Positions 10,352 to 62,374 of a stretch of 64,000 bases of DNA are shown in pieces. The stretch covers positions 1 through 64,000 of the forward strand of contig NZ_PPDK01000004.1 of the NCBI RefSeq assembly GCF_003074135.1, in the 5' to 3' direction. Origin of the DNA: Euzebya tangerina (GTDB lineage: Bacteria > Actinomycetota > Nitriliruptoria > Euzebyales > Euzebyaceae). Below the pieces are notes generated by a model. The model did no database searches. It was given only the letters and a program-made list of their open reading frames with translations, and was not told the origin of the DNA. The number at the start of each line of letters is the position of its first letter. Within the stretch, counting starts at the first letter, position 1. The position numbers and the translations under genes are program-made.

Positions 10352-12610
10352 CTACGAGGTCCCGACCAGTCGGCTGATCCCGCCGCCGGACTCGACGACC
10401 CAGAGCTCGCCGTCGGGACCCTCGGCGAAGCTGATCGGGCCACTCGCGCTCACCTCCAGATCTGCCGAGCGGGTCTCGCCATCCTCGACCGCGATGGCCA
10501 TCAGATCGCCGGCGCACCAGTCCGCGAAGACGTAGGCACCCCGGAGCGCTGGGATGGCCGACCCGCTGTAGACGGCCCCTCCGGTGATGGCGCAGTTGCC
10601 CGGCGCGCGGGTGCGGTACTGGTGGACCGGGTCGACCCGATCGGGCAGCGCAGGCCCCTGGTACAGCTCGCTGCCCTCGTAGTTGGGCCAGCCGAAGTTG
10701 GCGCCGTGGTCATCCAGGCCGATCAGGTTCACCTCCTCCCAGCCCCCCTGGCCGACGTCGCCGACCCACACCTCGTCCGTGTACGGGTCGAGCGAGATCC
10801 GGAACGGGTTGCGGAGGCCGTAGGTCCACAGCTCGGGTGCCGCTGCGAACGGGTTGGACCCGGGGACCTGGTACCCACCCTCGCCATCGGGCGTGATGCG
10901 GAGCAGTCCGGCCAGCAACGTCGTGGTGTCCTGTCCGTTGTTGAACCGGTCGTCACCACCACCGCCGTCGCCCAGGGCCCAGAGCAAGTCACCCTCGTCG
11001 GTCAGCACCACGTCACCGCCATTGTGGTTTGTCGCGGGCTGCGGGACCGTGAGCAGGGTCTGGCCCCCGGTCGGGTCGATGGTGCCGTCCGGCGCGACCG
11101 GGAACTCCTGCAGACGCGAGGTGCCGCCCTGCTCCCCCTCGATCGCGTCGTCGTCGGTGCTGGACAGGTACAGCCGAGACCCGTCGGCGTTGAAGACCAG
11201 GCCGAGCAGTCCGCCCTCACCCTCCACTCCGACCTGCTGGGACAGGTCCACCGCCAGCTCGGGGTCGCCGGTCGTGGCAGCACCATCGCGCAGGACGACC
11301 ACCTCGCCCTCACGCTGGGCGATCCAGACCTCGTCGGTCCCAGGACGCACGGTCAGGTCCAGCGCCCCGTCGGCGAAGGCGATCGGCTCCAGGCCGAGCT
11401 GACCGAGCGCGTCGAGGTCCGGGCTGGGCCGCGCCTGCGGCTGCTCGGTCGGCGTTGGCATGGGGCTTGGCGCTGGCGTCGGGGTCGGCGAGCCACTTGG
11501 CGCTGGTGATGGAGCGGGGTCGACGAGGTCCGGCCCGGAGATCTCCGGCGGGCCGATCTGCTGGACCTCCCACTCGGGGTTGCTGTCCAGCAGCGTGCTC
11601 GTGGCCGCTGAGACGCCCTGCTCGGAGGCCAGCAGGATCGGCGCGTCGTTGCGTGCGGCGTAGGGCGCGAGGCCGAACAGCCACACCCAGGCATCCTCGG
11701 CGAACCCGCCGGTTACCAGCACCCGCTCGACCGGCGGATCGTCGGTCCACAGCTCCTCGAGGATCGCGATGGCCGTCACGTCGCGGGACGGGCCGGCAAC
11801 CCTCGTCGTCGGCGCGATCTGCTCGAGTGCCGTCTCCACCTGCTCGGTCAGGGCCGCGACGCCACCGATGATGACGATCTCCGTTGGGGCGAGATCCTGG
11901 AGCGTGGTCTGAGCCGCCGGGTGGAGGTCGTCGGGGCCGGTCAGGACGATCGGCGTGGCGCGGTCGCTGGCGTAGGCCGCGACGGCTCCGGAGTCGGGCC
12001 AGTCGACAGCGGTTGCGACGATGACCTGGCCGCTCTCCGGCAGGCCGACGGCGGCTGCCACGGCCGCTGCGGTCTCCACCCGTGTGGGACCGGCGACCCG
12101 CTCGACACAGCCGGCGAGCTCCCCCAGTGCGTCGGACGCTGCCTCGTTGATGGCCGCGGTCCCTCCGACGATGACTACGCCGCCGCGGTTGCGCAGGCCG
12201 GGGGTACCGGCGGCACCGAGCCCCTCCACACACGCCTCGTCGCCGAGCACGCGTTGGATCTCCTCGGCAACGACCGCGGGGACCTCTCCGCGGGTGCCTC
12301 CGGGGATGAACAGCACCGGCCCGTCCTCGCCCGAAAGGGATGAGCCGACGAGCGTGTCGGCGAAGACACCCAGTCGGCCCACGACCACGCGGGTGGCCTC
12401 GCCGTCATCGAACGTCGCTTCGGAGATCTGCACCGCTGCGGTTGCCGGATCCGGGCTGTCGGCCAGCCGCTCCGCGGGAGTGTCGTCCTGCGCGTGGACG
12501 ACGCGGGTTGCCGGGACCAGCGCGGCCGTCATCGCCACGGCCAGGCAGACGGCCAGCCAGAGGGCCCGGCGCGGACGCGATCGGCCAGAGTGCTGGAGCA
12601 GAGACCACAT
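10352..12610 (-). CDS. Secreted CWB2 cell-wall-binding protein fused to a glucose/sorbosone dehydrogenase-like propeller
   Basis: This 752-residue exported protein has a signal peptide ending near VVHAQ (residue 41). Residues about 55-350 hold three CWB2 repeats, seen as the VVIVGGTAAIN and VIIGGVAALTEQV strands and RVAGPTRVETA motifs, which attach proteins non-covalently to wall polymers. A Pro/Ser/Thr linker (about 365-395) follows. Residues about 395-752 form a PQQ-type sugar-dehydrogenase beta-propeller, with ATNHNGGDVVL (likely catalytic His), ALGDGGGGDDRFNNGQDT, YGLRNPFRISLDP, GDVGQGGWEEVNLI and NFGWPNYEG. It probably oxidises a sugar or glycan at the wall. Substrate and cofactor are inferred. 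Confidence 0.88.
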   Translation of the reverse strand: MWSLLQHSGRSRPRRALWLAVCLAVAMTAALVPATRVVHAQDDTPAERLADSPDPATAAVQISEATFDDGEATRVVVGRLGVFADTLVGSSLSGEDGPVLFIPGGTRGEVPAVVAEEIQRVLGDEACVEGLGAAGTPGLRNRGGVVIVGGTAAINEAASDALGELAGCVERVAGPTRVETAAAVAAAVGLPESGQVIVATAVDWPDSGAVAAYASDRATPIVLTGPDDLHPAAQTTLQDLAPTEIVIIGGVAALTEQVETALEQIAPTTRVAGPSRDVTAIAILEELWTDDPPVERVLVTGGFAEDAWVWLFGLAPYAARNDAPILLASEQGVSAATSTLLDSNPEWEVQQIGPPEISGPDLVDPAPSPAPSGSPTPTPAPSPMPTPTEQPQARPSPDLDALGQLGLEPIAFADGALDLTVRPGTDEVWIAQREGEVVVLRDGAATTGDPELAVDLSQQVGVEGEGGLLGLVFNADGSRLYLSSTDDDAIEGEQGGTSRLQEFPVAPDGTIDPTGGQTLLTVPQPATNHNGGDVVLTDEGDLLWALGDGGGGDDRFNNGQDTTTLLAGLLRITPDGEGGYQVPGSNPFAAAPELWTYGLRNPFRISLDPYTDEVWVGDVGQGGWEEVNLIGLDDHGANFGWPNYEGSELYQGPALPDRVDPVHQYRTRAPGNCAITGGAVYSGSAIPALRGAYVFADWCAGDLMAIAVEDGETRSADLEVSASGPISFAEGPDGELWVVESGGGISRLVGTS

Positions 12611-12704: not shown

Positions 12705-14447
12705 ATGGCCGTGACGGACGGGTTGGCGATGCGAGAGCTGACCCGGCTGCGTGAGCTCCTGGCCGGGCTGGACCTGGACGACCGCACGCCCGCCGGGGCG
12801 GCTGCGATGGCGGCGCGGCAGGACCTCGTCGACCGGATCGACCGGCTGTTCGCGGCCGAGCCCATGGCAGATCGCCCCGATCGGCTGCCCGTCACCGTTG
12901 CGCTGCTGGGTCCCTCGGGGGCGGGCAAGTCGACGCTGCTGAACAAGCTGGTGGGTCATGAGGTGACGACGGTCGGCGCCCGTCGTCCCACCACAACCCG
13001 GGCGGTGTGGGTGGCCTCGCCCGCAGATCAGGCCGTGCTGCGGCGGCAGGTCGGTGCGGCCGTGCACACCACGTTGGCCGTCCCGGCGGGGCTGGCGCTG
13101 GTCGAGCACCCCGACACCGGGGTCTTCGACGCACTCCCGACGACCGCTCCTGGCCAGCGGTGGTCCGCCAGAGGCAAGTCGGTGCCGGCCGCGGACGTCT
13201 ACCTGGTGGTCGTCTCTCCCACGCGCTACGCCGACCGTCGTGTCTGGGACCTGCTCGCCCGACTGCCGGTCGATCCAGGTAGCGAGCGGGTCGCCCTCGT
13301 CCTCAACCGGTTCCCCAACGACTCGCGGGCGGTGACGGGGGACCTGAGCCGCCGTCTGGGAGACGCCGGCCTGCGTGACGTCATGGTCGTCGCGGTGCCG
13401 GATGACCTCGCGGCGCTGCAGGCCGTCCGGGCCTCTCTGTGGACCTACGCCGGATACCCCGAGCCAGCCTCGGCCGAGCAGTTGGAGCAAGCCGTCAGCG
13501 AGGAGGCCGTGGCGAGCTTCGCCAGGACACTGGAGGAGGATCTGCGCCCGCTGCTGCGTCTGGACCCGACGCTTCTCGCCCCGGAGCACGATCGGCCTCT
13601 GAACTCAGACCTCGGCGGCGAGTTGCTTGGGGCGGCCGACCTGGAGCCCGATCCAGCTCGCGACCGGATTGCCCTCGCACACCAGTTGACCGGCCAGGTC
13701 CGGCCAGAGGAGACCGCGGAGCACTGGGCTCGGCTGGCGTGGCGGGCCAGTGCCGGCACTCCGGCCGTCGTGCGCATCGGAGAGCTGGGCGAGCTGGGCA
13801 CGACCCGTCAAGCCGGGGGCGGCGCCCTGGGCACCGACCCGGTCAGCGACGGTGCAACCAACCTCGCTGCGGATCTTGCTGACGACCTCGCCACCAACCC
13901 GGCCGCCGAAGTGGCCGACGAGCTGGCCGAGGCCGCCTGGTCCGGCCTGCATGACGCACTTCTGGTGGCCACGCGCCGCCAGACACGTGGCATCCAGCAA
14001 TTGGCCGGCTCCGGGAGTGAGCCGACTGGCCTGGTGCGCGCCGGCCGAGCCAGCAGGCACATCACCGAGCTCGACTGGCAGGTGCGTGATTGGCTGCGGC
14101 GCATCCTGGCCGAGCTCGACGACGTCATCGGCGTGGACCGGGGTGCTTCCGTCGAGGCGGTCGCCGTCGGCGTTGCCTTGGCTGCGGTGGCGCGCACGGC
14201 AGGTCTGCACGAGGAGGCGGAGGCGCTGGGGAGGTGGCGTGTCCTCCAGCGGTCGGGTGTGCCGCTCGCGCCTCCCGCCGTCGTCCAGCGTGCCCAGGCC
14301 GACCTCGCGGAGCTGCTGGACGCCGCACTGCACCGCTTCACGGGCCGGGTGTCCTCCCCCGCGCCTTCCGGCCTGCGCGCGGTGCGCGATGCGGCCCACT
14401 CACTCCTTCAGGTCAGCGACCTCGGCGGGGGAGGCGAGTTGCGGTGA
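12705..14447 (+). CDS. Dynamin-like GTPase (first of pair)
   Basis: This 580-residue GTPase has a complete P-loop (LLGPSGAGKSTLLNKLVG, near 68-84), a G2 region RRPTTTRAVW near 92 and a G4-like LNRFPND near 200. The middle and C-terminal parts are helical and Ala/Leu-rich, as in bacterial dynamin-like proteins. It has no membrane segment. The next gene overlaps it by 4 bp and encodes a partner with two membrane helices. This matches the paired dynamin-like genes of Streptomyces, which act in sporulation septation; a membrane-remodelling or division role here is by analogy. Confidence 0.82.
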   Translation: MAVTDGLAMRELTRLRELLAGLDLDDRTPAGAAAMAARQDLVDRIDRLFAAEPMADRPDRLPVTVALLGPSGAGKSTLLNKLVGHEVTTVGARRPTTTRAVWVASPADQAVLRRQVGAAVHTTLAVPAGLALVEHPDTGVFDALPTTAPGQRWSARGKSVPAADVYLVVVSPTRYADRRVWDLLARLPVDPGSERVALVLNRFPNDSRAVTGDLSRRLGDAGLRDVMVVAVPDDLAALQAVRASLWTYAGYPEPASAEQLEQAVSEEAVASFARTLEEDLRPLLRLDPTLLAPEHDRPLNSDLGGELLGAADLEPDPARDRIALAHQLTGQVRPEETAEHWARLAWRASAGTPAVVRIGELGELGTTRQAGGGALGTDPVSDGATNLAADLADDLATNPAAEVADELAEAAWSGLHDALLVATRRQTRGIQQLAGSGSEPTGLVRAGRASRHITELDWQVRDWLRRILAELDDVIGVDRGASVEAVAVGVALAAVARTAGLHEEAEALGRWRVLQRSGVPLAPPAVVQRAQADLAELLDAALHRFTGRVSSPAPSGLRAVRDAAHSLLQVSDLGGGGELR

Positions 14448-16597
14448 CGGTCGTCGGGCCCGAGGCGATCGACCATGAGGAGGACCTGGCTCCACGCCTC
14501 GTCGCGCTGGCCAAGGCTGCGCACCTCTCGCGGGAGGTGGCGGATCATCCCCAGAGCGAGTCGATACTGGCTGAGCTCGAGCGCATACGGGAGGTGGTCA
14601 CCGAGCCGCACGGAACCCTCACCGTGGCGTTGGTCGGTCCGTCGGGAAGCGGCAGGTCCAGCCTGGTCAACGCGCTGCTCGGCAGGAGGGTTGCGGCAAC
14701 CGGTCTGGTCAGGCCAACCACGACACGCCCGGTCGCCTACTCGGTCGGCCGCGCTGCCGCCGTCGCGGCGGCGGCCATGTCCGGTGTGGCCGACGTCCAG
14801 GTGACCGCGGTTGACATGTCCGAGATCGGGGCGACCGGTGCTCCTGTGGCAGAGTTTCCGCTGGCAGAGTTTCCGCTGGCAGAGTTTCCGCTGGCAGAGT
14901 TTCCGCTGGCAGAGTTTCCGGTGGCAGAGTCTCCGGGGGCAGAGTCTCCGGTGACCGAGGTTTCGGGCACCCAGGCTCCGGTGACCGCCGGACAGATGAT
15001 CGACGCTCGAGCCGACGTGGCGCTTGAGGGGGTGGTCCTGGTTGATCTGCCGGGCAGCGGGCTTGCGGAGGGGCCGACGGTGGGGACGTCCGGTCGGCTT
15101 GGGGATGCGTCCACCGCTCGGGATGGCTTGGACCGTCTGGCCGACGTCCTCGACCTCGCTGTGTGGGTGGTCGACCCGGAGACGTACGCCGATCGTGACC
15201 TGCTCGAGCTCGGCCTCCTACCGCTCCTGCGATCACCGCTCGATGTGGCGGTGGTGGTGACGAGGGCCGACACGATCACGGCGGCGGAGGGGACGGAGCT
15301 GTCGAGCCACCTGCGGCAGATCATCGGCCGTCTGCTGGGGCGGAGCGGTGGTGGCTCCGTTGGGTCGGAGCGGTGGGCGGGGTCTGAGCGGTCAGCGGGG
15401 TCAGAGCGGTCAGCGGGGTCGGAGCGGTCGGCGGGGTCAGAGCGGTCGGCGAGGTCGGCGGGGTCGGAGCGGTCGGGCGGATCGGAGCGGTCGATCCGGC
15501 CCGACCCTGGGGCTGCTGCGACCGACGGTCTGCCGAACCCGTTGCTGGTCTCTGCCGTCTCCGGAAAGGGGGTGGATGACCTTCGACGGCTGCTGGCTGG
15601 GCGTCGTGTGCGGTCGGCTGGCCGGATCCCTGGCGTGCGATTTCAACTGGTCAACGCGGCGCGGCAGCTAAGGCCGGGGCCCTTGCCCGGTCTGGAGCGG
15701 GCCGAGGATGGAACCCAGGCCCGCGAGCTGCTTCCCACCGAGCCAGTCCACCAACTGATCGGTGAGGAGTTGGCTGTGAGTGCTCGGGCGGCAGCAGTGG
15801 GCGACGCGCGTGCGGCGGAACTTCATCGGGCGACGGCCTGGCCGCCGTTGCGCTGGACGGGGCAGGTCTCCGAGCCGGCTGTTGCGCCGGATGAGGTACC
15901 GATTCCTAGGGTCCCGGCCTCTCACGCGGGTCGAGTCGACCTAGCGGATCAGGCCGCCTCGGGTGACGGGCCCGGCTCGTCGGCGTCACGGCGAGGTGGT
16001 CCAACTGGTGCCGTCGTGGCTGCGCTGGCGACCTACGCCGAGGCGCTGGTCAGCGGGGATGAGCGGGCGGGGGCCTTGGTGGAGGACTCCTCCGACGAGG
16101 ACCCTGCCGATCCCTGGGCTGTCGCCCTGATCCGCCAGGTCGAGGCTGGGGCACCCCGGATCGCTCCGGCCGTGGACCGCGTGGAGCGGAAGAGGCGGGT
16201 ATCGGCGGAGATAGTGCCCAGCTGGGCGCGGTCGGTGTGGGTGATGCAGGGTCTGCTGCTGGCGGGGTTCGTGGTCGCTGTTGTGCTGGTCGGGTGGGCC
16301 TTGGTGCCCGGCTCGGGTGCAATCACCATAGGCGGTAGCGGGTGGGTGCCGCCCTCCCTCGCGACGGGTGGTGCGCTGGCTGCTGTCTGTCTGTTGTCCG
16401 GTGTTGTGCTCCACATCATCGGCCGAGGTGTGGCGATCCAGGCCGGCCGACAGCAGGGGCTGATGACCAAGGAGGCACTCTTGCGCGCAGTGGCGACTGA
16501 GAGTGATCGCGTGCTGGACACGGCGATCGCCGAGGTGATGGGGCCGCGGCGTCGGGTTCGGTTGCTGTTGGACCAGGTGACCCCCTCGCCGACGTAG
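14444..16597 (+). CDS. Dynamin-like membrane GTPase with altered P-loop (second of pair)
   Basis: The 717-residue partner starts at GTG 14444, overlapping the previous stop (GTGA). Its P-loop reads GPSGSGRSSLVNALLG (near 64): the nearly invariant Lys is Arg. G2 (RPTTTRPV, near 90), G3 (VLVDLPGSG, near 198) and a G4-like VVVTRADT (near 270) remain. Two in-frame 15-bp repeat arrays interrupt the domain, one before G3 (AEFPL-type repeats) and one after G4 (GSERSA-type repeats). Near the C-terminus are two membrane helices (about 600-622 and 636-660) joined by a short Gly-rich loop. It probably anchors the pair to the membrane and may bind nucleotide weakly. Confidence 0.82.
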   Translation: MTVVGPEAIDHEEDLAPRLVALAKAAHLSREVADHPQSESILAELERIREVVTEPHGTLTVALVGPSGSGRSSLVNALLGRRVAATGLVRPTTTRPVAYSVGRAAAVAAAAMSGVADVQVTAVDMSEIGATGAPVAEFPLAEFPLAEFPLAEFPLAEFPVAESPGAESPVTEVSGTQAPVTAGQMIDARADVALEGVVLVDLPGSGLAEGPTVGTSGRLGDASTARDGLDRLADVLDLAVWVVDPETYADRDLLELGLLPLLRSPLDVAVVVTRADTITAAEGTELSSHLRQIIGRLLGRSGGGSVGSERWAGSERSAGSERSAGSERSAGSERSARSAGSERSGGSERSIRPDPGAAATDGLPNPLLVSAVSGKGVDDLRRLLAGRRVRSAGRIPGVRFQLVNAARQLRPGPLPGLERAEDGTQARELLPTEPVHQLIGEELAVSARAAAVGDARAAELHRATAWPPLRWTGQVSEPAVAPDEVPIPRVPASHAGRVDLADQAASGDGPGSSASRRGGPTGAVVAALATYAEALVSGDERAGALVEDSSDEDPADPWAVALIRQVEAGAPRIAPAVDRVERKRRVSAEIVPSWARSVWVMQGLLLAGFVVAVVLVGWALVPGSGAITIGGSGWVPPSLATGGALAAVCLLSGVVLHIIGRGVAIQAGRQQGLMTKEALLRAVATESDRVLDTAIAEVMGPRRRVRLLLDQVTPSPT
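14846..14950 (+). repeat. 15-bp in-frame minisatellite (7 units)
   Basis: Seven tandem units of CTGGCAGAGTTTCCG or close variants lie end to end. Five central copies (14846-14920) differ only in the first base, and the last two carry small changes. A decayed eighth unit follows (14951-14965). The frame encodes A-E-F-P-L/V. The near identity indicates recent expansion. Confidence 0.95.
15362..15492 (+). repeat. 15-bp in-frame minisatellite encoding G-S-E-R-S
   Basis: About eight near-identical units of the type GGGTCAGAGCGGTCG encode repeated GSERSA/GSERSG. One 9-bp offset (ARSAG) interrupts the phase around 15448-15460. It sits after the G4-like motif of the GTPase and is highly charged and Ser-rich, so probably disordered. 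Confidence 0.92.
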
Positions 16598-16685: not shown

Positions 16686-18467
16686 TCAGATCGGGAGGGG
16701 CATCGGACCAGCTCGGGAGGCGTGTCGTGTCGGGTCAGCCGAACGGGCAGCGCCGACGATGGGTTGGCCCGCCTGGTCCACCCATCGCCGCGCTCCCGGA
16801 CTGCCGCGAAGGTGGTAGCCGCGGTCGGTCTTCTGGGAGTGATGGAAGCTGCACAGCCACGCCAGGTCGTCGAGCTGGGTGGTTCGGTTGATGGCCCAGC
16901 CGGTGACGTGGTCGATCTCAAGGAGGTGGTCGCTCGTGCAGTGTGGCACTTCGCACTGGTAGCCCCGAGCTTCCATGGCGGTGCGCTGGCGGGCAGTCAC
17001 CTGCCGACCGAGGTGGGCCACGGCGACATCCTCCGCGTCCTGGATGACGTAGGCCACATGCGCTTCCGGGATCTGCTGCTTCACAGCGGACAGGGACACC
17101 CGGCCGATGCCGGCGATCTCGCAGACCTCGTCGGCGGTGGCCCAGCCACGTCGGAGTGCCGAGGCGTCCACCCGGACGATGACCTTGGCCTGCCGAGCAG
17201 ATCGTCGGGCGGGGGTGCAGCCGCCATGAGGTGCTCGCCCTGGATCCTGCGGAACCTGCTCCTCCGCTTGGGAGCCGGGCGCACTCCTCGGAGGGCCGCC
17301 TTCATCCGCGGGTCGACGGACACCCGCAGACATCTGGTCCGGTGAAGCTCTCTGGTCAGGTGCCGTCGCTCCTGGTATGGATGCCGGCTCTGGTTCAGGT
17401 GCCGTCTCGTGCGCCGAGGTGGCTTCCTGAGCTGAGGTCACGTCCGGACCGGACGACGACCTTCGTGCGGCCGTCGACTCTCCTGCAGGCGCGGACCGTT
17501 GTCCTGGCGCGGACTCCTGCGCAGGTGTGCACGTTCGTGCTGGCGCGGAGTGTTCTGCCGGCGTGGACGATCGTGCTGGCGTGGACTCTTGTGAAGGCGT
17601 GGACTGTCTGGCGGTCGTCAACTCTCCTGCGGGCGTGGACGGCCGTGCCGGCGTGGACCGTTGTGCGGGCGTCGTCTCTGGTGGCGAGGCCACTGCACGT
17701 GGGCCGGCGCGAACATGGCCAGAGCCGGCGGAGTCACCCGCACACGCGGCACCGCGTTCGGTAACCGCGAGGAGGGCATCCAACCGGTAGGCAGCGTCAT
17801 CTTCCCGCCGGCCGGCCCTGTACGCGCTCTTGAAGATCCGGTCGTGGTCGCGACGCAGGGCTGCCTCGATCCGGGCGCCGATGTCCGCTGGCGCGCTCAT
17901 GAACGCCTGCCACTCGCCGTCGATGTGCGAGCTAGACCGGAACGACCGTCGCAGGTAGTGACGTCGCCGAGTCTGATCCGGATTGGGGTCGGCGCGGCGC
18001 GCCCGCTCCCGACAGGTGCTCTGCAGGTCGCCAAGCGATTGAGAGCGGGCAGCATCGAGGAGGTCCCCCGCTGCGCTCGGGTCGACTTCTGCGGCCTGCG
18101 AGACCGCACTCGTCTGCTCGTCGGACAACTGGCCATCCCGGACCGCGTTGGCCACATCCGGTTGGTTGGCAAGCCGTTCGGAGTCCTTCAACTGCCGCTT
18201 GGCGGCCGCCCTCGAGCGACCGGTGACCTTGGCAAGGACTCCCGCAACCTCGTTCTGGGATCGGCCGGACTCGCGCCCGACCTCTTCGACGCGACGCGCC
18301 ATCAGCGTGAGCGCACCCTCCAGCAACTTCTTGCCAGCGGCCAACTGCTCCACCACTGGCGTGACGTCGTCGTCGGCGACGAGGCTGGGCTCCAGGTGGC
18401 GGAGCTGACGCCGCAGATCGGCCACCAGGTCGTGGACCTGCCTCCCGCTCAGCGCCCTCTGCGTCAT
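16686..18467 (-). CDS. DUF222 / HNH endonuclease with low-complexity insertion
   Basis: The 593-residue protein has an N-terminal DUF222 helical region (about 1-235) and a C-terminal HNH nuclease motif: CEVPHC, then LEIDHVTGWAI and LAWLCSFHHSQKTDRGYHL. Between them, about residues 255-400, is a Ser/Thr/Pro/Ala-rich stretch of short repeats (STPAR, STPAE, SAPAR and similar), which is unusual for the family. DUF222-HNH proteins are abundant and repeated in actinobacterial genomes (REP13E12-like), with unknown targets. A promoter with a very short leader lies just upstream. A second DUF222-HNH gene is at 58942-60561. Confidence 0.9.
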   Translation of the reverse strand: MTQRALSGRQVHDLVADLRRQLRHLEPSLVADDDVTPVVEQLAAGKKLLEGALTLMARRVEEVGRESGRSQNEVAGVLAKVTGRSRAAAKRQLKDSERLANQPDVANAVRDGQLSDEQTSAVSQAAEVDPSAAGDLLDAARSQSLGDLQSTCRERARRADPNPDQTRRRHYLRRSFRSSSHIDGEWQAFMSAPADIGARIEAALRRDHDRIFKSAYRAGRREDDAAYRLDALLAVTERGAACAGDSAGSGHVRAGPRAVASPPETTPAQRSTPARPSTPAGELTTARQSTPSQESTPARSSTPAEHSAPARTCTPAQESAPGQRSAPAGESTAARRSSSGPDVTSAQEATSAHETAPEPEPASIPGATAPDQRASPDQMSAGVRRPADEGGPPRSAPGSQAEEQVPQDPGRAPHGGCTPARRSARQAKVIVRVDASALRRGWATADEVCEIAGIGRVSLSAVKQQIPEAHVAYVIQDAEDVAVAHLGRQVTARQRTAMEARGYQCEVPHCTSDHLLEIDHVTGWAINRTTQLDDLAWLCSFHHSQKTDRGYHLRGSPGARRWVDQAGQPIVGAARSADPTRHASRAGPMPLPI

Positions 18468-18762: not shown

Positions 18763-19560
18763 CTACTGATCGGCAGGGTTGGGGACCGTGCCGATCACAA
18801 TCTCCCGAACCTCATAGGGCCGGGTCGCACGTCGCACGACTCTGGGGTCCACATCAACCGAGGTCTCGCGTCGCCACTCCACGGTCAGGCCGATCGGGTA
18901 GGTGCCCTTGGTCGACCACATGTGGCGCACCGGCGTGTCCTCGTGTTCCCCGCCCGCGGCCGTGGCTTCGTACTCCTCCTGGTGGCCGTACGTCTCGGCC
19001 GTCGGCTCATTGACGTCGAACGTCCAGCGGTACGGAGTGATCGCACAGGACACCGGGTATCCGCGGATCACCCCATCGTCCTGGTCGGAGCGGGAGCTCG
19101 AGTCCCACAGCCAGGTCTCGACACCGGTCACACCCCACTCCCGAGGGTTCACGCCGATGGCTGGCTGCGGGATCGATGGGCACACCTGGGTGACGATCTC
19201 CGAGTGAGTCGGAGGCGGCGGAGGGGGCGGTGGCGCAGGAGGGCTCCCACCGGCCCCACCGCCAGCAGCAGCAGCCGAAGCGCCTCCATCCGATGGGGCC
19301 GTGATCACGCACGCCCCACTCCCGCTGTCGCACGGGATCCCGCCCAGCGACACATCGACGTTGGGATTGAGGTCGAGGATCCCGGCATCGTTGGCCCCGA
19401 CCCGGTCGATGTCGGACGCGGTGTTTCCCGAGTGGATGTTGGGAGGCGGTGGCTCCTGCCCACCAGAACCGCCGTTGTTCTGGGCGATCGCGGGTGAAGA
19501 CGCGCTCCAGGAGAACCCCGCAAGGATCGAGATCACGAGAAGGCTCAGACCGCGGGACAT
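18763..19560 (-). CDS. Secreted protein of a duplicated two-gene module (copy 1, gene A)
   Basis: The 265-residue protein has a signal peptide (LSLLVISILAGFSWSASSPA, cleavage near AIAQ). It is followed by a variable Gly/Pro region ending in a polyproline tract near 115, and a conserved C-terminal domain. Shared with the paralogue at 60696-61541 are NPREWGVTGVETWLWD, IRGYPVSC, WTFDVNEPTAETYGHQ, TPVRHMWSTKGTY and YEVREIVIG. The fold looks like an extracellular beta-sandwich, and I know no function. ATG at 19560 overlaps the previous stop by 1 base (TGATG), so it is translationally coupled to gene B. A 284-residue upstream start is less likely because it precedes the signal peptide. Confidence 0.75.
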   Translation of the reverse strand: MSRGLSLLVISILAGFSWSASSPAIAQNNGGSGGQEPPPPNIHSGNTASDIDRVGANDAGILDLNPNVDVSLGGIPCDSGSGACVITAPSDGGASAAAAGGGAGGSPPAPPPPPPPPTHSEIVTQVCPSIPQPAIGVNPREWGVTGVETWLWDSSSRSDQDDGVIRGYPVSCAITPYRWTFDVNEPTAETYGHQEEYEATAAGGEHEDTPVRHMWSTKGTYPIGLTVEWRRETSVDVDPRVVRRATRPYEVREIVIGTVPNPADQ

Positions 19561-20462
19561 CAGCACGGCCTCGGGGGATCCATAGGCGGATTGATCGGTT
19601 CTTGGTCGAAGAGCCAATCAAGATGGTGTTCGTTGAACTGCTCGTTGGCGCCGGGATACGTGGGCGGTACGTCCGCCACAGAGAGATCTTGGACGGGGCC
19701 TACATCGCGCAGGAAGGCCGCCGTGGATTGACTCGGATCTATCCCATGACCAACAAGGACGGGCCACTGTCGCACACGAGGCTCTCCTTCGGCCGTTTGG
19801 TATGCAGCGACCGCAATGAACATGCTTCCCCGACCTTGTGAGCCGCCCTCCCCATTGGTCCACCAGCCAAGCACTCCGGAGAGGAAGTCGTCTTGGATAG
19901 GTAGGCCCCGGTACCGGACTGACTCGGGCTGAATGCCCTCCTCAATCACCATTCGAAGAAGATCATCTCGAAGTTGTGGGGCGAAGTCGTTCCACACCTC
20001 TTGCTCGTTGGAATACGGTCCGTACTGACAGTTCGGATCCGATGACGTACTTCCCCAGAGAAAGTCGACTCGGGATCTAGTCGGGACCCGGTCCCACTCC
20101 GCCAGGCCGAGCCACATGTCCGAGGCCCGCAACTCCTCCAACTGCTCTTCGAGCGTGGGTTCGGTCTCGGTTGGCTCCGGCGTCGCCGAGGGTGCCGCCG
20201 AGGGAGTTGGCTCGGACGAGTTCGCGTTATCACTGACGCCCGGCGACGGCGACGCGGTGGGGACCTCCGATACCACGTCCTCCGTCCCCTCGTCAGCCTG
20301 AGAGTCCTCCGACACCACGAGCCCCTCCGACGCCATGACCTCTTCCCCGGAACCCTCCCTGCCACGGTCCAGCGCTCGCGCTCCGAGCACGCCCAACCCG
20401 AGCGCCAGCAACAAGCCCGACACGATCCAGACGGTCAGCTCCGTCCGTCGTGTCCGGTCCAT
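19560..20462 (-). CDS. Membrane-anchored protein of the duplicated module (copy 1, gene B)
   Basis: The 300-residue protein has an N-terminal anchor (TELTVWIVSGLLLALGLGVL, then GARALDRG), a long acidic Ser/Thr/Pro linker to about residue 115, and an extracellular domain with many Trp residues ending in PPRPC at the C-terminus. The paralogue at 61517-62374 shares the anchor pattern TEL-VW-V-GLL---G-GVLGAR-LD-G and also ends in Cys, but its outer domain has diverged strongly. The start is ATG at 20462, just before the anchor. No known domain is recognised. It is first in the pair with the secreted gene. Confidence 0.72.
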   Translation of the reverse strand: MDRTRRTELTVWIVSGLLLALGLGVLGARALDRGREGSGEEVMASEGLVVSEDSQADEGTEDVVSEVPTASPSPGVSDNANSSEPTPSAAPSATPEPTETEPTLEEQLEELRASDMWLGLAEWDRVPTRSRVDFLWGSTSSDPNCQYGPYSNEQEVWNDFAPQLRDDLLRMVIEEGIQPESVRYRGLPIQDDFLSGVLGWWTNGEGGSQGRGSMFIAVAAYQTAEGEPRVRQWPVLVGHGIDPSQSTAAFLRDVGPVQDLSVADVPPTYPGANEQFNEHHLDWLFDQEPINPPMDPPRPC

Positions 20463-20828
20463 CGGCTCCCGTCCCGCTGATGCCACTACGTTCCCGTACC
20501 TCCCACGACCCGTATCAAGCCGCCAGACTATCGCCAGCCCGTGCTCCACCTGGACCGTTGTCCACAAGTCCGGCCTCGTCCGCCCCCTGACCGGTCAGCG
20601 CAAGAAGTCGAAACAACTGCAAGGGCGCCTTTCCGGGCCGCCCATGCCAGACGTCCACCTGAGCGCAAGGCGCCTCGAACGGGCCTGGCCTCCGCAGGCA
20701 CTCCGGAGATTCCTGCACACGCTCGACGTGATCGAAGCAGGCTGAACGGTCCCGATCGACGGGCCAGGCCGGACCCGACCACCCGTGGTCACGCGTTGCG
20801 ACTCGGCCGCCCCCTATCCTCACGAGCA
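20463..20828. other. Intergenic region between divergent genes
   Basis: This 366-bp gap separates the anchored-protein gene (leftward) from the large DUF4012 gene (rightward). An open frame continues upstream of 20829 back to 20541, but its Arg-rich composition looks like a shadow. A TTGTCCACA sequence near 20566 resembles a DnaA box. No clear promoter hexamers are seen. Confidence 0.4.
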
Positions 20829-23800
20829 GTGGAGCAGTCCCCCCGCAACTCCGGCGAGATCGACCAGGACGATGGCGCCTGGCCGTGGGATACGCCCGAA
20901 GACGGCGATCTGGAGCAACGGCTGGACGCGCTCCGAGCGCGCCTACCAGGCAAACCCCTGGGCCAGGACGACGAGCCCAACCCGGCGGTGGAGGCCTGGC
21001 TGCAGCGCGGATGGGGACGCCGGACGGAGTCTGACGACGACCCGGACTCATCTTCCACGGACCAGCCGCCGGACCACGCCACTGGCGACCTCGACCTCCT
21101 CCCCGTCGATGAGCCCGATGTGCCGACACTGCGCGCGACCGCACACCCCGAATCACACGCTGCGGACGGCCCGGCCAGCGATCAGGACCCAACGACCACC
21201 GAGGACCAGTGGGGCGCGCAGACCTGGCACCACACCCGGATGGAGCCCGCACCCGACCACGTCTTCCCAGTCGATGCCGCCGTCCCGGTCGATGCCGCTG
21301 TCCCCGTTGATGACGCCGCTCCTGCCAACGCTGACCCAGAGGAGTCCACCGGCAACACGATCCCGGCTGACCCCGATCCTGCTCAGGAAAAGACCGACCC
21401 GCCCTCGTATGGCGAGGCTGACAGCGACCGCTCCCCGATGGTCGCCACCGCCGCCAACAGCAAAGTGGTCGCGGACGTGGAGGGTGAGGAGGAGGGCCCC
21501 ACGGCTCCGCCGCTGCCGCGAGCGGACCAGGACGAGCCGGCGTCAACGCCCGATCCGCCAAACGCAGCACCCCCGACCCATCAGGTCGTGGCAACCGGCG
21601 ACACCACCGCTCGCGAGCACGACGGACCACCCGACCACGTGGACGAGCTCACGCAGACGCGCAACCTGCCGCCGACCCACGACGCCCACCACTCACCCGA
21701 ACGACGCGCACCCGAACCACGCGCACCCGACCTGAACCCACCCGACGGCGCTGGTCTGAGCGCCCACGCGTCATCCCGGTCCCCCGAGCAGGGCGAGGCA
21801 ACCTCCCACCGGACGCCCACCGAAGCCGAACCTCCCGCCGGCGAGGTAATCCTCCCCACCAGTGCGAACAACCCCGACACCGGCACGGCAACCTTCCCCG
21901 CGGAGCCGCCGGAACCCGACAACGCCACCAACCTCAGCGCGCCGGACGAGGACGACGCCGGCGACGCCATTGACCCCACCACGCCCGACACCTTCGACAT
22001 CGTCGAGGCAGCCCACACTGCAGAGCCCCCACAGCCTGACGCCGACGAGGCCAACGACCACACCACGCCCGTCGAACCCGACACCGAGGACCCCAAGCGT
22101 CCAAGCACACCCACCGACCCCGGCCGGGCCCCCAACAACGCAACTCTCCCCACCACGCCCAACCACTTCGACATCGCCGACGCAGCCCTCACGGCGGAGC
22201 CCCAGCAGCCTGACGCCGACGAGGCGATCGGCCACACGACGGCCGTCCAACCCCACACCGAGGACACCCCGCTCCCGAGCACACCCACCAACCCTGGCCG
22301 GGGCCCGACCAACGCAAATTTCCCCACCACGCCTAACGACTTCGACATCGCCGAGGCAGCCCCCACTGCAGAGCCCCAGCAGCCTGACGCCGACGAGGCC
22401 ATCGGCCACACCACGCCCGTCGAACCCGACACCGAGGACCCCAAGCGTCCAAGCACACCCACCAACCTCGGCCCCGCCCCCACCAAGGCAACTCTCCCCA
22501 GCACGCCCGACGATTTCGACGTCGGCGACCCACCCTCGCCAGCCACTCCGACGAGCGACAAAGCGCAGGACAGACCCGCGGGCTCGGCCCCAGCCTCGCC
22601 CACGACCACCGGACCCCAGGCCGCCATCCCCACCACCGTTGGTGAGCTGATCGGCCGCCCCACCCGCTCGACCGGGCCCCGCCCCGACGGGCCCCCGAGG
22701 CCCGCCGACCCCACCAGACCCGACGACCTGAGCAGCGCTGCCGGTCCATCACAACCCGAGAACCCCACTGCCTCCGCATTCCGCCCAAGAGAACGAGACC
22801 GCATCACCAGCCGACACACAACCAGCCCACACTTAACCAGCCCGGGCAAGACCCGCGACAGCAAGACCAGCCGCTACACAACCAGCCCAAGCACGACCAG
22901 CCGCCGCACAACCAGCCCACCCAAGGCCCACAGACCGTCCGGCACCACCCCCGACCACAACCACGACCACAACAGCCACGAACCAGAAGCCACCCCGACC
23001 CCCACCCCTGAGCAGCTCAAGCGCCGCCGCCTCACCCGAACCCTGGCCGCCGCCGCCCTCACCGTTGTCCTCGCCACTGTCGGACTGGCCGCTCTGGCCG
23101 CCTTCTCCGCCCGAGACGACCTCACCATCGCCCGCCAGGGAGCCAGCCAGGCCGTCACCGCCCTCTCCCGCGGCGACCTGCCCGCCACCCGCCAGGCCGT
23201 CGACGACGCCCGTGCCGCCACCGACCGCGCCCAGAGCAGCCTAGACAACCGTGCCCTGACCGTCCTCGGCGCCGTCCCCCTTGCCGGCAACGCCGTCGAC
23301 ACCGTCCGTGCGGTCGGCAACGCCGTCGACGATGTGGTCACCATCGCCGACGACCTGGTCGCGGCGCTCGAGGATCTCCCTGAGGGCCTCGAGTCCCTCC
23401 GACCAGCCGACGGCCGGATCCCAGTCGACACCATCGCCGCCATCGCACCCACCCTCGACGGTGCCGCCGACATCGCCGGACAGGCCCACGCCGACGTCCA
23501 GGCCTCCCCGACCACCGCCCTCCCCGAGCTGGTCCAAGACGCACGAACCGAGGCCCTCGCCCTCCTCCGCGACCTCGACGCCGAACTCTCGACCGCCGCG
23601 ACGCTCGCACAGACCCTCCCCGCCTTCCTGGGTGCCGACGGCCCTCGCGAGTACTTCGTCGCTGCCCAGAACCCCGCCGAGATCCGCGGCGCCGGAGGAT
23701 TCCTGGGCGTCTGGTCCACCCTCCGCGTGGACGACGGGGTCATCGAACTCCAGGAGTTCACCGAGATCCGCCAGCTCACGGACCTCGACGTGGCCGAGAT

Positions 23801-60695: not shown

Positions 60696-61541
60696 TCAGG
60701 ACGGATTGGGGACGTTGCCGATGACGATCTCGCGGACCTCGTAGGCCCGAGTGGTCTCGGTGACCGGCCAGTCGTCGCCGTAGTTGGTGTCCCGATACCA
60801 GGTCACGTCGAGGGTGACGTCGTAGGTGCCCTTGGTGGACCACATGTGGCGGACGGGCGTGGTCTCGGACTCACTGCCGGCCTCGCGGACGGTGTACTGG
60901 CGCTGGTGGCCGTACTGCTCGGCGGTTGGTTCACCGACATCGAACGTCCAGGTCTGCGGGGTGAGGACACAGGAGACGGGGTAGCCGCGGATGTCGAGCC
61001 CCGGTCCCGATGATCGAGGTTGCGGGTCCGTGGCATCCCACAGCCACGTCTCGACGCCGGTCACGCCCCACTGGTGCGGGTTGTGTCCGATCTCGGGATC
61101 AGGAACATCGGGGCAGATCCGCTGGACGATCTCGTCGTGATCCGGCGGCCGAGGTATGGCCACGCCAGTGCCTGCCACGATGAATCCCGCGGGCAGGTCG
61201 GAGATCCCGTCGCCATCGGCGTCGGGGCAGAACGGCAGGGAGTCGGACTGCGTCTGTCCCGTCCCGGTGGTCACGACACGGTTGGTGAGGCAGCCGGGTG
61301 CCGCGGAGGTCGACCCGGCGTTGCCGAGGGTCGTCTGGCCGGGCAACGGAGTGTTCGCGCCGGCGCAGGCTGCTGGACCACCAATGCAAGAGCCCTCGCT
61401 ACCTCCTGCGGTCCCGCCTGAGCCGCCACCCGGAACGTTCGATGGCTGCGCCTTTGCCGCGGAGGTGAAGGTCAAGAAGATCGCCGATGCCAAGAGCAGA
61501 GCGAAAGGCGCACGCCTCAACAACGCTCGCACTCCGTCCAC
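60696..61541 (-). CDS. Secreted protein of the duplicated two-gene module (copy 2, gene A)
   Basis: The 281-residue paralogue of 18763-19560 has a signal peptide (APFALLLASAIFLTFTSAAK), a Gly/Cys-containing variable region with a DADGDGISD motif, and the conserved C-terminal domain: NPHQWGVTGVETWLWDATDP, IRGYPVSCVLTPQTWTFDVG, TPVRHMWSTKGTYDVTLDV, YEVREIVIGNVPNP. The match to copy 1 is strong over the last 150 residues and absent before. GTG 61541 overlaps the upstream gene by 25 bp; GTG 61532 is equally possible. Function unknown. Confidence 0.75.
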   Translation of the reverse strand: MDGVRALLRRAPFALLLASAIFLTFTSAAKAQPSNVPGGGSGGTAGGSEGSCIGGPAACAGANTPLPGQTTLGNAGSTSAAPGCLTNRVVTTGTGQTQSDSLPFCPDADGDGISDLPAGFIVAGTGVAIPRPPDHDEIVQRICPDVPDPEIGHNPHQWGVTGVETWLWDATDPQPRSSGPGLDIRGYPVSCVLTPQTWTFDVGEPTAEQYGHQRQYTVREAGSESETTPVRHMWSTKGTYDVTLDVTWYRDTNYGDDWPVTETTRAYEVREIVIGNVPNPS

Positions 61542-62374
61542 CCCTCTTCTGCAGCAAGTTCACGAACACGATCTGCGGCGTCCTCAGACACTTGATTGAA
61601 GTCGAGGCCGTCGGCCTCTGCGTAGACAATGGGCTCCCATTCGGCGACCACCTCTTCGGTGAAAGTCACGGCCCTGAAGAAGTACGCCTTCTTGACTCCT
61701 TCCTCGTCTTCGAAGACAGCCGTCCACACGGCGGTGAACAGCTCGTCCTGGAAGTAGACGTCCTGCATTCCGCCGAAGCTGTTGAAAGGCTCCGACCCAT
61801 CGGCGCCACCGAAGACGGGCCGGTCGACGGGTTCCCCGAGATCCTGGACCTGCTCGGCTATAGGGATGACCAGGCGGTCCCAGAGTTCGGGTGGCTGGTT
61901 CTCCTGCTCAGGGTCGGCCCAACCGTTCTCATAGCTGAAGCGAGCCGTGGGCGGGGCGTCCGGGTGGGTGATCTCGGCCACCGTGCCCAGCTGCTGCCAC
62001 GGTCCGGTGGCGGGGCCTCCCTCGAACAGGACCGTCGTGGACCGTGCCTCCGTAGCGGTCGGTGTGGGCGTCGGGCTGCCGGTCGGAGTCGGCGTCGGAG
62101 AGGGATCCTCCGTCGGTGTCGCAGACGCGGTCGGACTTGACGATGGCGTCGCTGCCGGTTCGTCCAACATGGGGTCCACCGGGGCGGGCCTTGGAGCCTC
62201 TGTGATGGCCAAGACCGGGTTTGCCTCGTCCCGGTCAGGCTCCCCACCTCCCCCATCCAGCCACCGCGCGCCCAACACGCCGACACCGGCCAGGAAAAGC
62301 AGACCGCAGACGCCCCAGACCACCAACTCGGTGGGGCGTTCGCGTAGCCGGCGGCCGCCTCCTCCTGATCTCAT
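61517..62374 (-). CDS. Membrane-anchored protein of the duplicated module (copy 2, gene B)
   Basis: The 285-residue protein has an N-terminal anchor (TELVVWGVCGLLFLAGVGVL, then GARWLDGGG), an Ala/Pro/Ser/Thr linker (about 50-105) and an outer domain ending WTECERC. It shares with copy 1 (19560-20462) the anchor sequence, the linker type, the C-terminal Cys and the order before gene A. The outer domains (ENGWADPEQENQPPELWDRL here) show little resemblance. This pattern suggests a common assembly mode with variable specificity, which is inference. Confidence 0.7.
   Translation of the reverse strand: MRSGGGGRRLRERPTELVVWGVCGLLFLAGVGVLGARWLDGGGGEPDRDEANPVLAITEAPRPAPVDPMLDEPAATPSSSPTASATPTEDPSPTPTPTGSPTPTPTATEARSTTVLFEGGPATGPWQQLGTVAEITHPDAPPTARFSYENGWADPEQENQPPELWDRLVIPIAEQVQDLGEPVDRPVFGGADGSEPFNSFGGMQDVYFQDELFTAVWTAVFEDEEGVKKAYFFRAVTFTEEVVAEWEPIVYAEADGLDFNQVSEDAADRVRELAAEEGWTECERC

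Follow-up and report, generated by a model that had tools for sequence, protein, structure and literature searches.

The window analysed here is a stretch of 64,000 nucleotides from Euzebya tangerina (contig NZ_PPDK01000004.1, positions 1 to 64,000 of the forward strand), and our subject is a pair of overlapping dynamin-like GTPase genes within it, P0001 and P0002. The stop of P0001 and the start of P0002 share four bases, GTGA, at 14444-14447, and both frames are open. The content of guanine plus cytosine (GC) at the three codon positions was 0.80/0.54/0.85 in P0001 and 0.77/0.56/0.78 in P0002, showing that the coding signal is kept; the third-position value (GC3) of P0002 lies below those of the seven other window genes checked (0.81-0.93). 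The start of the Pfam domain MMR_HSR1 was matched above the curated cut-off in both proteins, and the start of Dynamin_N in P0002 only (27.4 bits against a cut-off of 27; P0001, with 23.3 bits, stays below it). A preliminary description of this DNA had recognized the overlapping dynamin-like pair, the P-loop GPSGAGKST in the first member, GPSGSGRSS in the second and two membrane helices in the latter, and all of this was borne out. From it the description derived a division of labour between an active, soluble first subunit and a catalytically weakened, membrane-anchored second one. Our analysis does not uphold that split, as P0001 is itself eroded. The description passes over this erosion, the altered G3 and the missing N/TKxD G4 of P0001, and two repeat arrays that lie inside the G domain of P0002. 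The features are listed in Table 1.

Table 1. Features of the gene pair in window coordinates
Feature	Position	Strand	Basis or remark
P0001, first gene of the pair	12705..14447	+	translation of 580 residues; diverged member of the first-gene subfamily
P-loop GPSGAGKST of P0001	12909..12935	+	sequence
P0002, second gene of the pair	14444..16597	+	717 residues, GTG start
Altered P-loop GPSGSGRSS of P0002	14636..14662	+	sequence; Lys in 118/118 other second genes
15-bp tandem repeat, (AEFPL)n, between G2 and G3 of P0002	14847..14950	+	Tandem Repeats Finder (TRF): 6.9 copies, 96% matches
G3 region DLPGSG of P0002	15044..15061	+	family form DLPD[HF]DS
G4 TRAD of P0002	15260..15271	+	family N[KRQH]xD wherever the pattern matched
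18-bp tandem repeat, (GSERSA)n, between G4 and G5 of P0002	15362..15493	+	TRF: 7.3 copies
Two membrane helices of P0002	16226..16441	+	hydropathy, sequence and model; residues ~595-631 and 637-666

Each protein scored best to the profile of its own subfamily: P0001 gave 104 bits to the first-gene profile versus 40 to the second-gene profile, and P0002 gave 118 bits to the second-gene profile versus 54 to the first-gene profile. These profiles were built from members of the class, with the window and the named loci described below absent from them. The scores therefore do not represent the chance match of an open reading frame (ORF), and they support the dynamin-like assignment of the preliminary description. 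A scan of GTDB, for which 16 aligned second-gene proteins (window left out) served as query, confirmed at least 338 loci of 597 candidate stretches; the best 80 of these, all actinobacterial by title, are the named loci. Against the same profiles they scored far higher than the window pair (first genes 350-635 bits, second genes 383-624, cut ones included). The first gene lies upstream at 77 of the 80 named loci and is also present at 25 of the 26 fetched class loci that hold the second gene, and P0002 likewise directly adjoins a first-gene member, P0001, upstream. Matches to P0002 were found in 26 of 41 genomes of relatives, its own included. By profile scores and gene order, P0001 and P0002 belong, in diverged form, to a family of tandem dynamin-like GTPase pairs that many actinobacteria carry.

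The extent of the divergence was assessed at invariant positions, defined as those identical in at least 97% of the reference members. Gaps were scored as losses for the window genes and for those of a further pair of the host at C1:1.816 Mb, and were skipped for reference members. P0002 retains 21 of 37 invariant residues (21/36 without its gap), having 15 substitutions and one gap, while second-gene reference members (n=98) retain at least 88%. Among the residues lost are the P-loop Lys, the Asn of G4, the Lys of WVxDPxKYAD and, in DLPDxDS, two Asp and the Ser. P0001 retains 27 of 44, with the Asp of G3 replaced by Glu among its losses, and the first-gene reference members (n=90) retain at least 89%. 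Erosion of this kind in P0001 speaks against an active first subunit paired with a weakened second.

The Arg in the P-loop of P0002 (codon AGG, 14654-14656, one base off the Lys codon AAG) was found in no other second gene. Lys occupies this position in all 38 other class second genes that were read after profile search and in 80 of 80 second genes of the named loci, that is, in 118/118, although these are paralogues and homologues rather than orthologues, and the two sets may overlap. The preliminary description had asked whether Arg is fixed in the second gene, and had stated that Lys in most close orthologues, as a sign of an isolated mutation, would refute its model; Lys is what the relatives carry, which counts against the model by its own standard. 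The 38 class genes are distinct places, two of them in the host's own genome, counted after duplicate hits to a place and the window had been removed. L045, L051 and L084 were left out of the 38, as they lack the P-loop and we took them for a neighbouring gene that one over-long profile row had brought in; second genes with GKSA are in the profile-search count and absent from the trees below. At L136 the true P-loop is GSTGSGKSS, the first pattern match there lying upstream of the gene. One of the two GTDB scan patterns demands Lys. The other motif is present at 73 of the 80 loci, which were thus within reach of the scan irrespective of Lys. The first genes keep Lys wherever the P-loop was read, P0001 included: at the 80 named loci, 76 have Lys, one is cut before the P-loop, and three loci have no first gene. 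Among loci L199-L204 from phylum genomes, which are outside the 118, Lys was present in every P-loop read at five, and L201 gave no pattern match. Since 15 of the 37 invariant positions of P0002 are substituted and one is a gap, the Arg is, judged from the alignments, one of many changes and no single designed switch.

The other G motifs, which the preliminary description held to remain in P0002, are indeed present, but they are altered relative to the family. G3 in full reads DLPGSGL versus DLPD[HF]DS, G4 is TRAD, and WVVDPETYAD stands where the family has WVxDPxKYAD. On account of Arg, DLPGSGL and TRAD in place of the family's P-loop Lys, G3 and G4, we filed P0002 as a diverged paralogue, not an ordinary functional second-gene member. 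In P0001, G3 is altered to VEHPD versus LDAPD, LDTPD or similar in relatives. By eye, an N/TKxD G4 is absent from P0001 in the alignment, and likewise from the other aligned first genes (alignments of 25 and 33), in which the position resembles LDRVP, LTQVH or NRIPP. P0001 is thus not obviously a complete GTPase, and the proposed contrast with P0002 fails at G4. The P-loop and the DxPD motif are conserved in first genes (e.g., L037, L053 and L097) despite the missing N/TKxD G4.

Two helices were found at the same place as in P0002 in 16 of the 16 other second genes that reach that far, three more being cut at contig ends, and two transmembrane segments are reported for the Streptomyces protein DynB (vnz_12105). 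The predicted membrane anchor of P0002, with its two helices, is a trait of the family. The solubility of P0001 that the preliminary description assumed is unsupported: P0001 has one weakly hydrophobic segment, and at least one such segment occurs in 22 of 26 first genes. AlphaFold models built with family alignments had a mean predicted local distance difference test score (pLDDT) of 64.9 for P0001 and 74.4 for P0002, whose modelled helices span residues 593-620 and 637-712. The P0001 model is poor (189 of 580 residues with pLDDT <50), which limits its fold comparison; its top structure matches were mitofusin 1 (Z 15.6, root-mean-square deviation (rmsd) 5.7, 285 residues aligned) and the mycobacterial protein IniA (Z 15.6, rmsd 8.6, 274 aligned). 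The P0002 model matched IniA (6j72; Z 18.3, rmsd 6.7, 269 aligned) and mitofusin 1 (5gnt; Z 17.1, rmsd 6.4, 292 aligned). The mitofusin and IniA matches comprise approximately 255-320 aligned residues spread along both models, most with a large rmsd (about 5 to 9). For P0002, proteins that consist of little more than a G domain, Era among them (Z 19.2, 172 aligned), scored equally high or higher over the G domain alone. In its model, P0002 has the G domain with flanking helical bundle that marks the dynamin-superfamily fold.

Both repeat arrays of P0002 are in-frame inserts in multiples of three, and both are predicted to be disordered (pLDDT <50 at residues 134-184 for the AEFPL region and 302-360 for the GSERSA region). 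A 26-base piece of the 15-bp repeat matched nowhere else in the genome when as many as three mismatches were allowed. Tandem repeats in window genes lie at 14847-14950, 15362-15493, 17463-17672, 21974-22537 and 22806-22925, with periods of 15, 18, 36 and 174 bp, all multiples of three; among the listed TRF arrays, only that at the first bases of the window (period 20) has another period. As further genes of the window also carry repeats with such periods, these arrays probably reflect a general tendency of the genome.

The search with P0002 revealed two further tandem pairs in the host genome, at C1:1.131 Mb (L037) and C1:1.816 Mb (L036). The former (C1:1.131-1.134 Mb) is an ordinary pair, with the same gene order and layout as the window pair and, in the frames picked, the same four-base overlap; it retains GSTGAGKST and GSTGSGKSS, with DLPDFDS and NKTD in the second gene, has short branches and groups with two of the three other genomes of the genus. 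The latter (L036:2405-5916, G000:C1:1.815-1.819 Mb) is a second diverged pair, with an eroded first gene that retains 25 of 44 invariant residues (25/40 without gaps, four of the losses being gaps) and a nearly ordinary second gene that retains 33 of 37. On these counts, the three pairs form a series in which both partners are ordinary (L037), the first is eroded (L036) or both are eroded (window).

No orthologue of P0002 was found in the genomes of 40 relatives (best match 41 bits, residues 6-105), in 99 other phylum genomes, which overlap with the relatives (best 40.5 bits), in a pattern scan of GTDB (44 stretches matched, none confirmed) or in a plasmid collection (E up to 1e-5); 11 of 100 phylum genomes, its own and some class genomes included, had any match to P0002 at 1e-6. 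Similarly, no orthologue of P0001 was found in 65 other class genomes (best 55 bits), and its best match besides itself among the 66 class genomes was the C1:1.816 Mb counterpart in its own genome (79 bits). Quick tree searches (26 class and 14 named first genes; 20 class and 18 named second genes) gave the window genes long end branches: 2.66 for gene 1 (3.52 at C1:1.816 Mb; median 0.34) and 2.88 for gene 2 (1.86 at C1:1.816 Mb; median 0.53). We considered the window pair and L036 as sister pairs and did not adopt this relation; the full trees join them, both branches are long, and the gene 2 join is flagged as possibly false. In trees without L036, P0002 lies among ordinary pairs of the family (a set of 5 rows) and P0001 has no supported place. 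Glu at the first-gene G3 is common to the window and L036, which speaks for a common origin. BLASTP with P0001 gave a Nocardiopsis protein (86 bits) and then L036 (82), and with P0002 it gave L036 at 53.5 bits, barely above others (53.1); these pairwise scores do not decide the sister question. Duplication within the host's own lineage would be the simplest, rather than a demonstrated, reading of the origin of the window pair.

In Streptomyces, DynB, with its two transmembrane segments, and its partner DynA act as a pair in the sporulation divisome (PMC8748795); DynA/DynB are also called tandem (PMC6715688). The window pair resembles these actinobacterial dynamin-like partners in the two membrane helices of P0002, but it is strongly diverged, has Arg in the second P-loop and is likened to them by description only. 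Mycobacterial IniA and IniC are bacterial dynamin-like proteins encoded in one operon (PMC6715688). Both window models match IniA, as given above, and IniA is not among the best 60 PDB matches of either window sequence profile (best 60 of 218 and of 130). Unlike P0002, IniA has the P-loop Lys (K49), and its mutation is described as affecting activity only marginally (PMC6715688). The genes of Campylobacter Cj-DLP1/2 lie side by side like those of the window, and the proteins form a heterotypic complex; turnover there is reported to be negligible once either protein has its P-loop Lys mutated (PMC6104087), whereas the second window gene has Arg. As the results for Cj-DLP1/2 and IniA differ, Arg alone is no proof of lost activity. 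No paper containing both "Euzebya" and "dynamin" was found in the open-licence PMC literature.

We favor the reading that P0001 and P0002 are a third, fast-diverged accessory pair, which has probably kept assembly and membrane anchoring and in which turnover would be weak or absent. The broad erosion of invariant residues makes a normal GTP cycle unlikely, and the pair would no longer run the GTP-driven cycle of the family at full rate. Both proteins would still be folded and come together at the membrane. They may serve there as an accessory scaffold that is slow or nucleotide-locked, or they may modulate the ordinary pair, which would do the housekeeping work from elsewhere on the chromosome. 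Several points weigh against this reading. No orthologue attests purifying selection on the pair, which may be heading for loss. DxxG and TRxD are forms that we take to be partly canonical for GTPases, so P0002 may still bind GTP. The modulation of the ordinary pair is something that we only infer, and IniA is reported to tolerate mutation of its P-loop Lys (PMC6715688).

The main rival is that the pair is a redundant duplicate in decay, in which drift is eroding function and the expansion of repeats in loops is a side effect. We regard this as unlikely. In its favor, invariant residues are lost in both partners, the branches are long, the nearly pure 15-bp repeat suggests recent slippage, and the GC3 of P0002 is below that of the seven other window genes checked; against it, the frames are intact, the overlap and both helices are kept, the repeats come in multiples of three, and each protein clearly scores to its own subfamily. 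Improbable in our view is a still active heteromeric GTPase in which Arg is tolerated and which works in the manner of the ordinary pair, for another site or condition. The G3 DxxG and the G4 TRAD of P0002 are near canonical, but many further invariant residues are lost. The marginal effect of the K49 mutation in IniA (PMC6715688) would suit such an enzyme, and the negligible turnover of Cj-DLP1/2 with either P-loop Lys mutated (PMC6104087) would not.

The preliminary model of an active soluble motor, P0001, and a membrane receptor, P0002, with a weakened G domain draws on GPSGAGKST in the former and on Arg and the two membrane helices in the latter. We consider it quite improbable, since Arg occurs in 0/118 other second genes and P0001 has Glu for the G3 Asp, no N/TKxD G4 and no support for solubility. 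An error of one base in sequencing or assembly, turning AAG into AGG, would also explain the Arg, as the codons are one base apart and one assembly only carries the gene; against this, P0002 has substitutions at fourteen further invariant positions and a gap at one more, and we give this explanation almost no credence. P0001 keeps the P-loop Lys and has lost the G3 Asp, while P0002 keeps the G3 Asp and has lost the P-loop Lys. On this basis, we considered complementing eroded subunits, whose heterodimer would build a single composite nucleotide site, slow or locked, at the interface of the two G domains. The surrounding repeat loops, variable in length, would tune the contact, and the pair would serve as a static membrane clamp; we hold this to be very improbable.

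Under the favored reading of an accessory pair, both partners in a duplicated copy of the actinobacterial dynamin-like pair can move a long way from the consensus for nucleotide binding with gene order and helices kept. Provided that the window pair is expressed and binds the ordinary one, it would offer a natural test of whether GTP turnover or mere heteromer assembly is what matters. As a finding on the division of labour it is ordinary, because Arg occurs in one gene only.

No functional hint comes from the window neighbours of the pair, one a CWB2/glucose-sorbosone dehydrogenase protein and the other lacking a Pfam match, or from the flanks of three other pairs, which differ from one another. 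In the former neighbour (10352-12610, - strand), a glucose/sorbosone dehydrogenase domain is joined to CWB2 cell-wall-binding repeats; as query this protein gave 157-183 matches per genome in all four genomes of the genus, its own included, and most of the matches listed lie in its CWB2 part. Elsewhere in the window, similar ORFs at 18763-19617 (-) and 60696-61541 (-) share the ending YEVREIVIGxVPNP, and the ORFs that adjoin them, 19560-20567 and 61517-62374, carry TELxVWxVxGLLxxxGxGVLGAR near the start; from these shared motifs, the two sets look like a duplicated gene pair.

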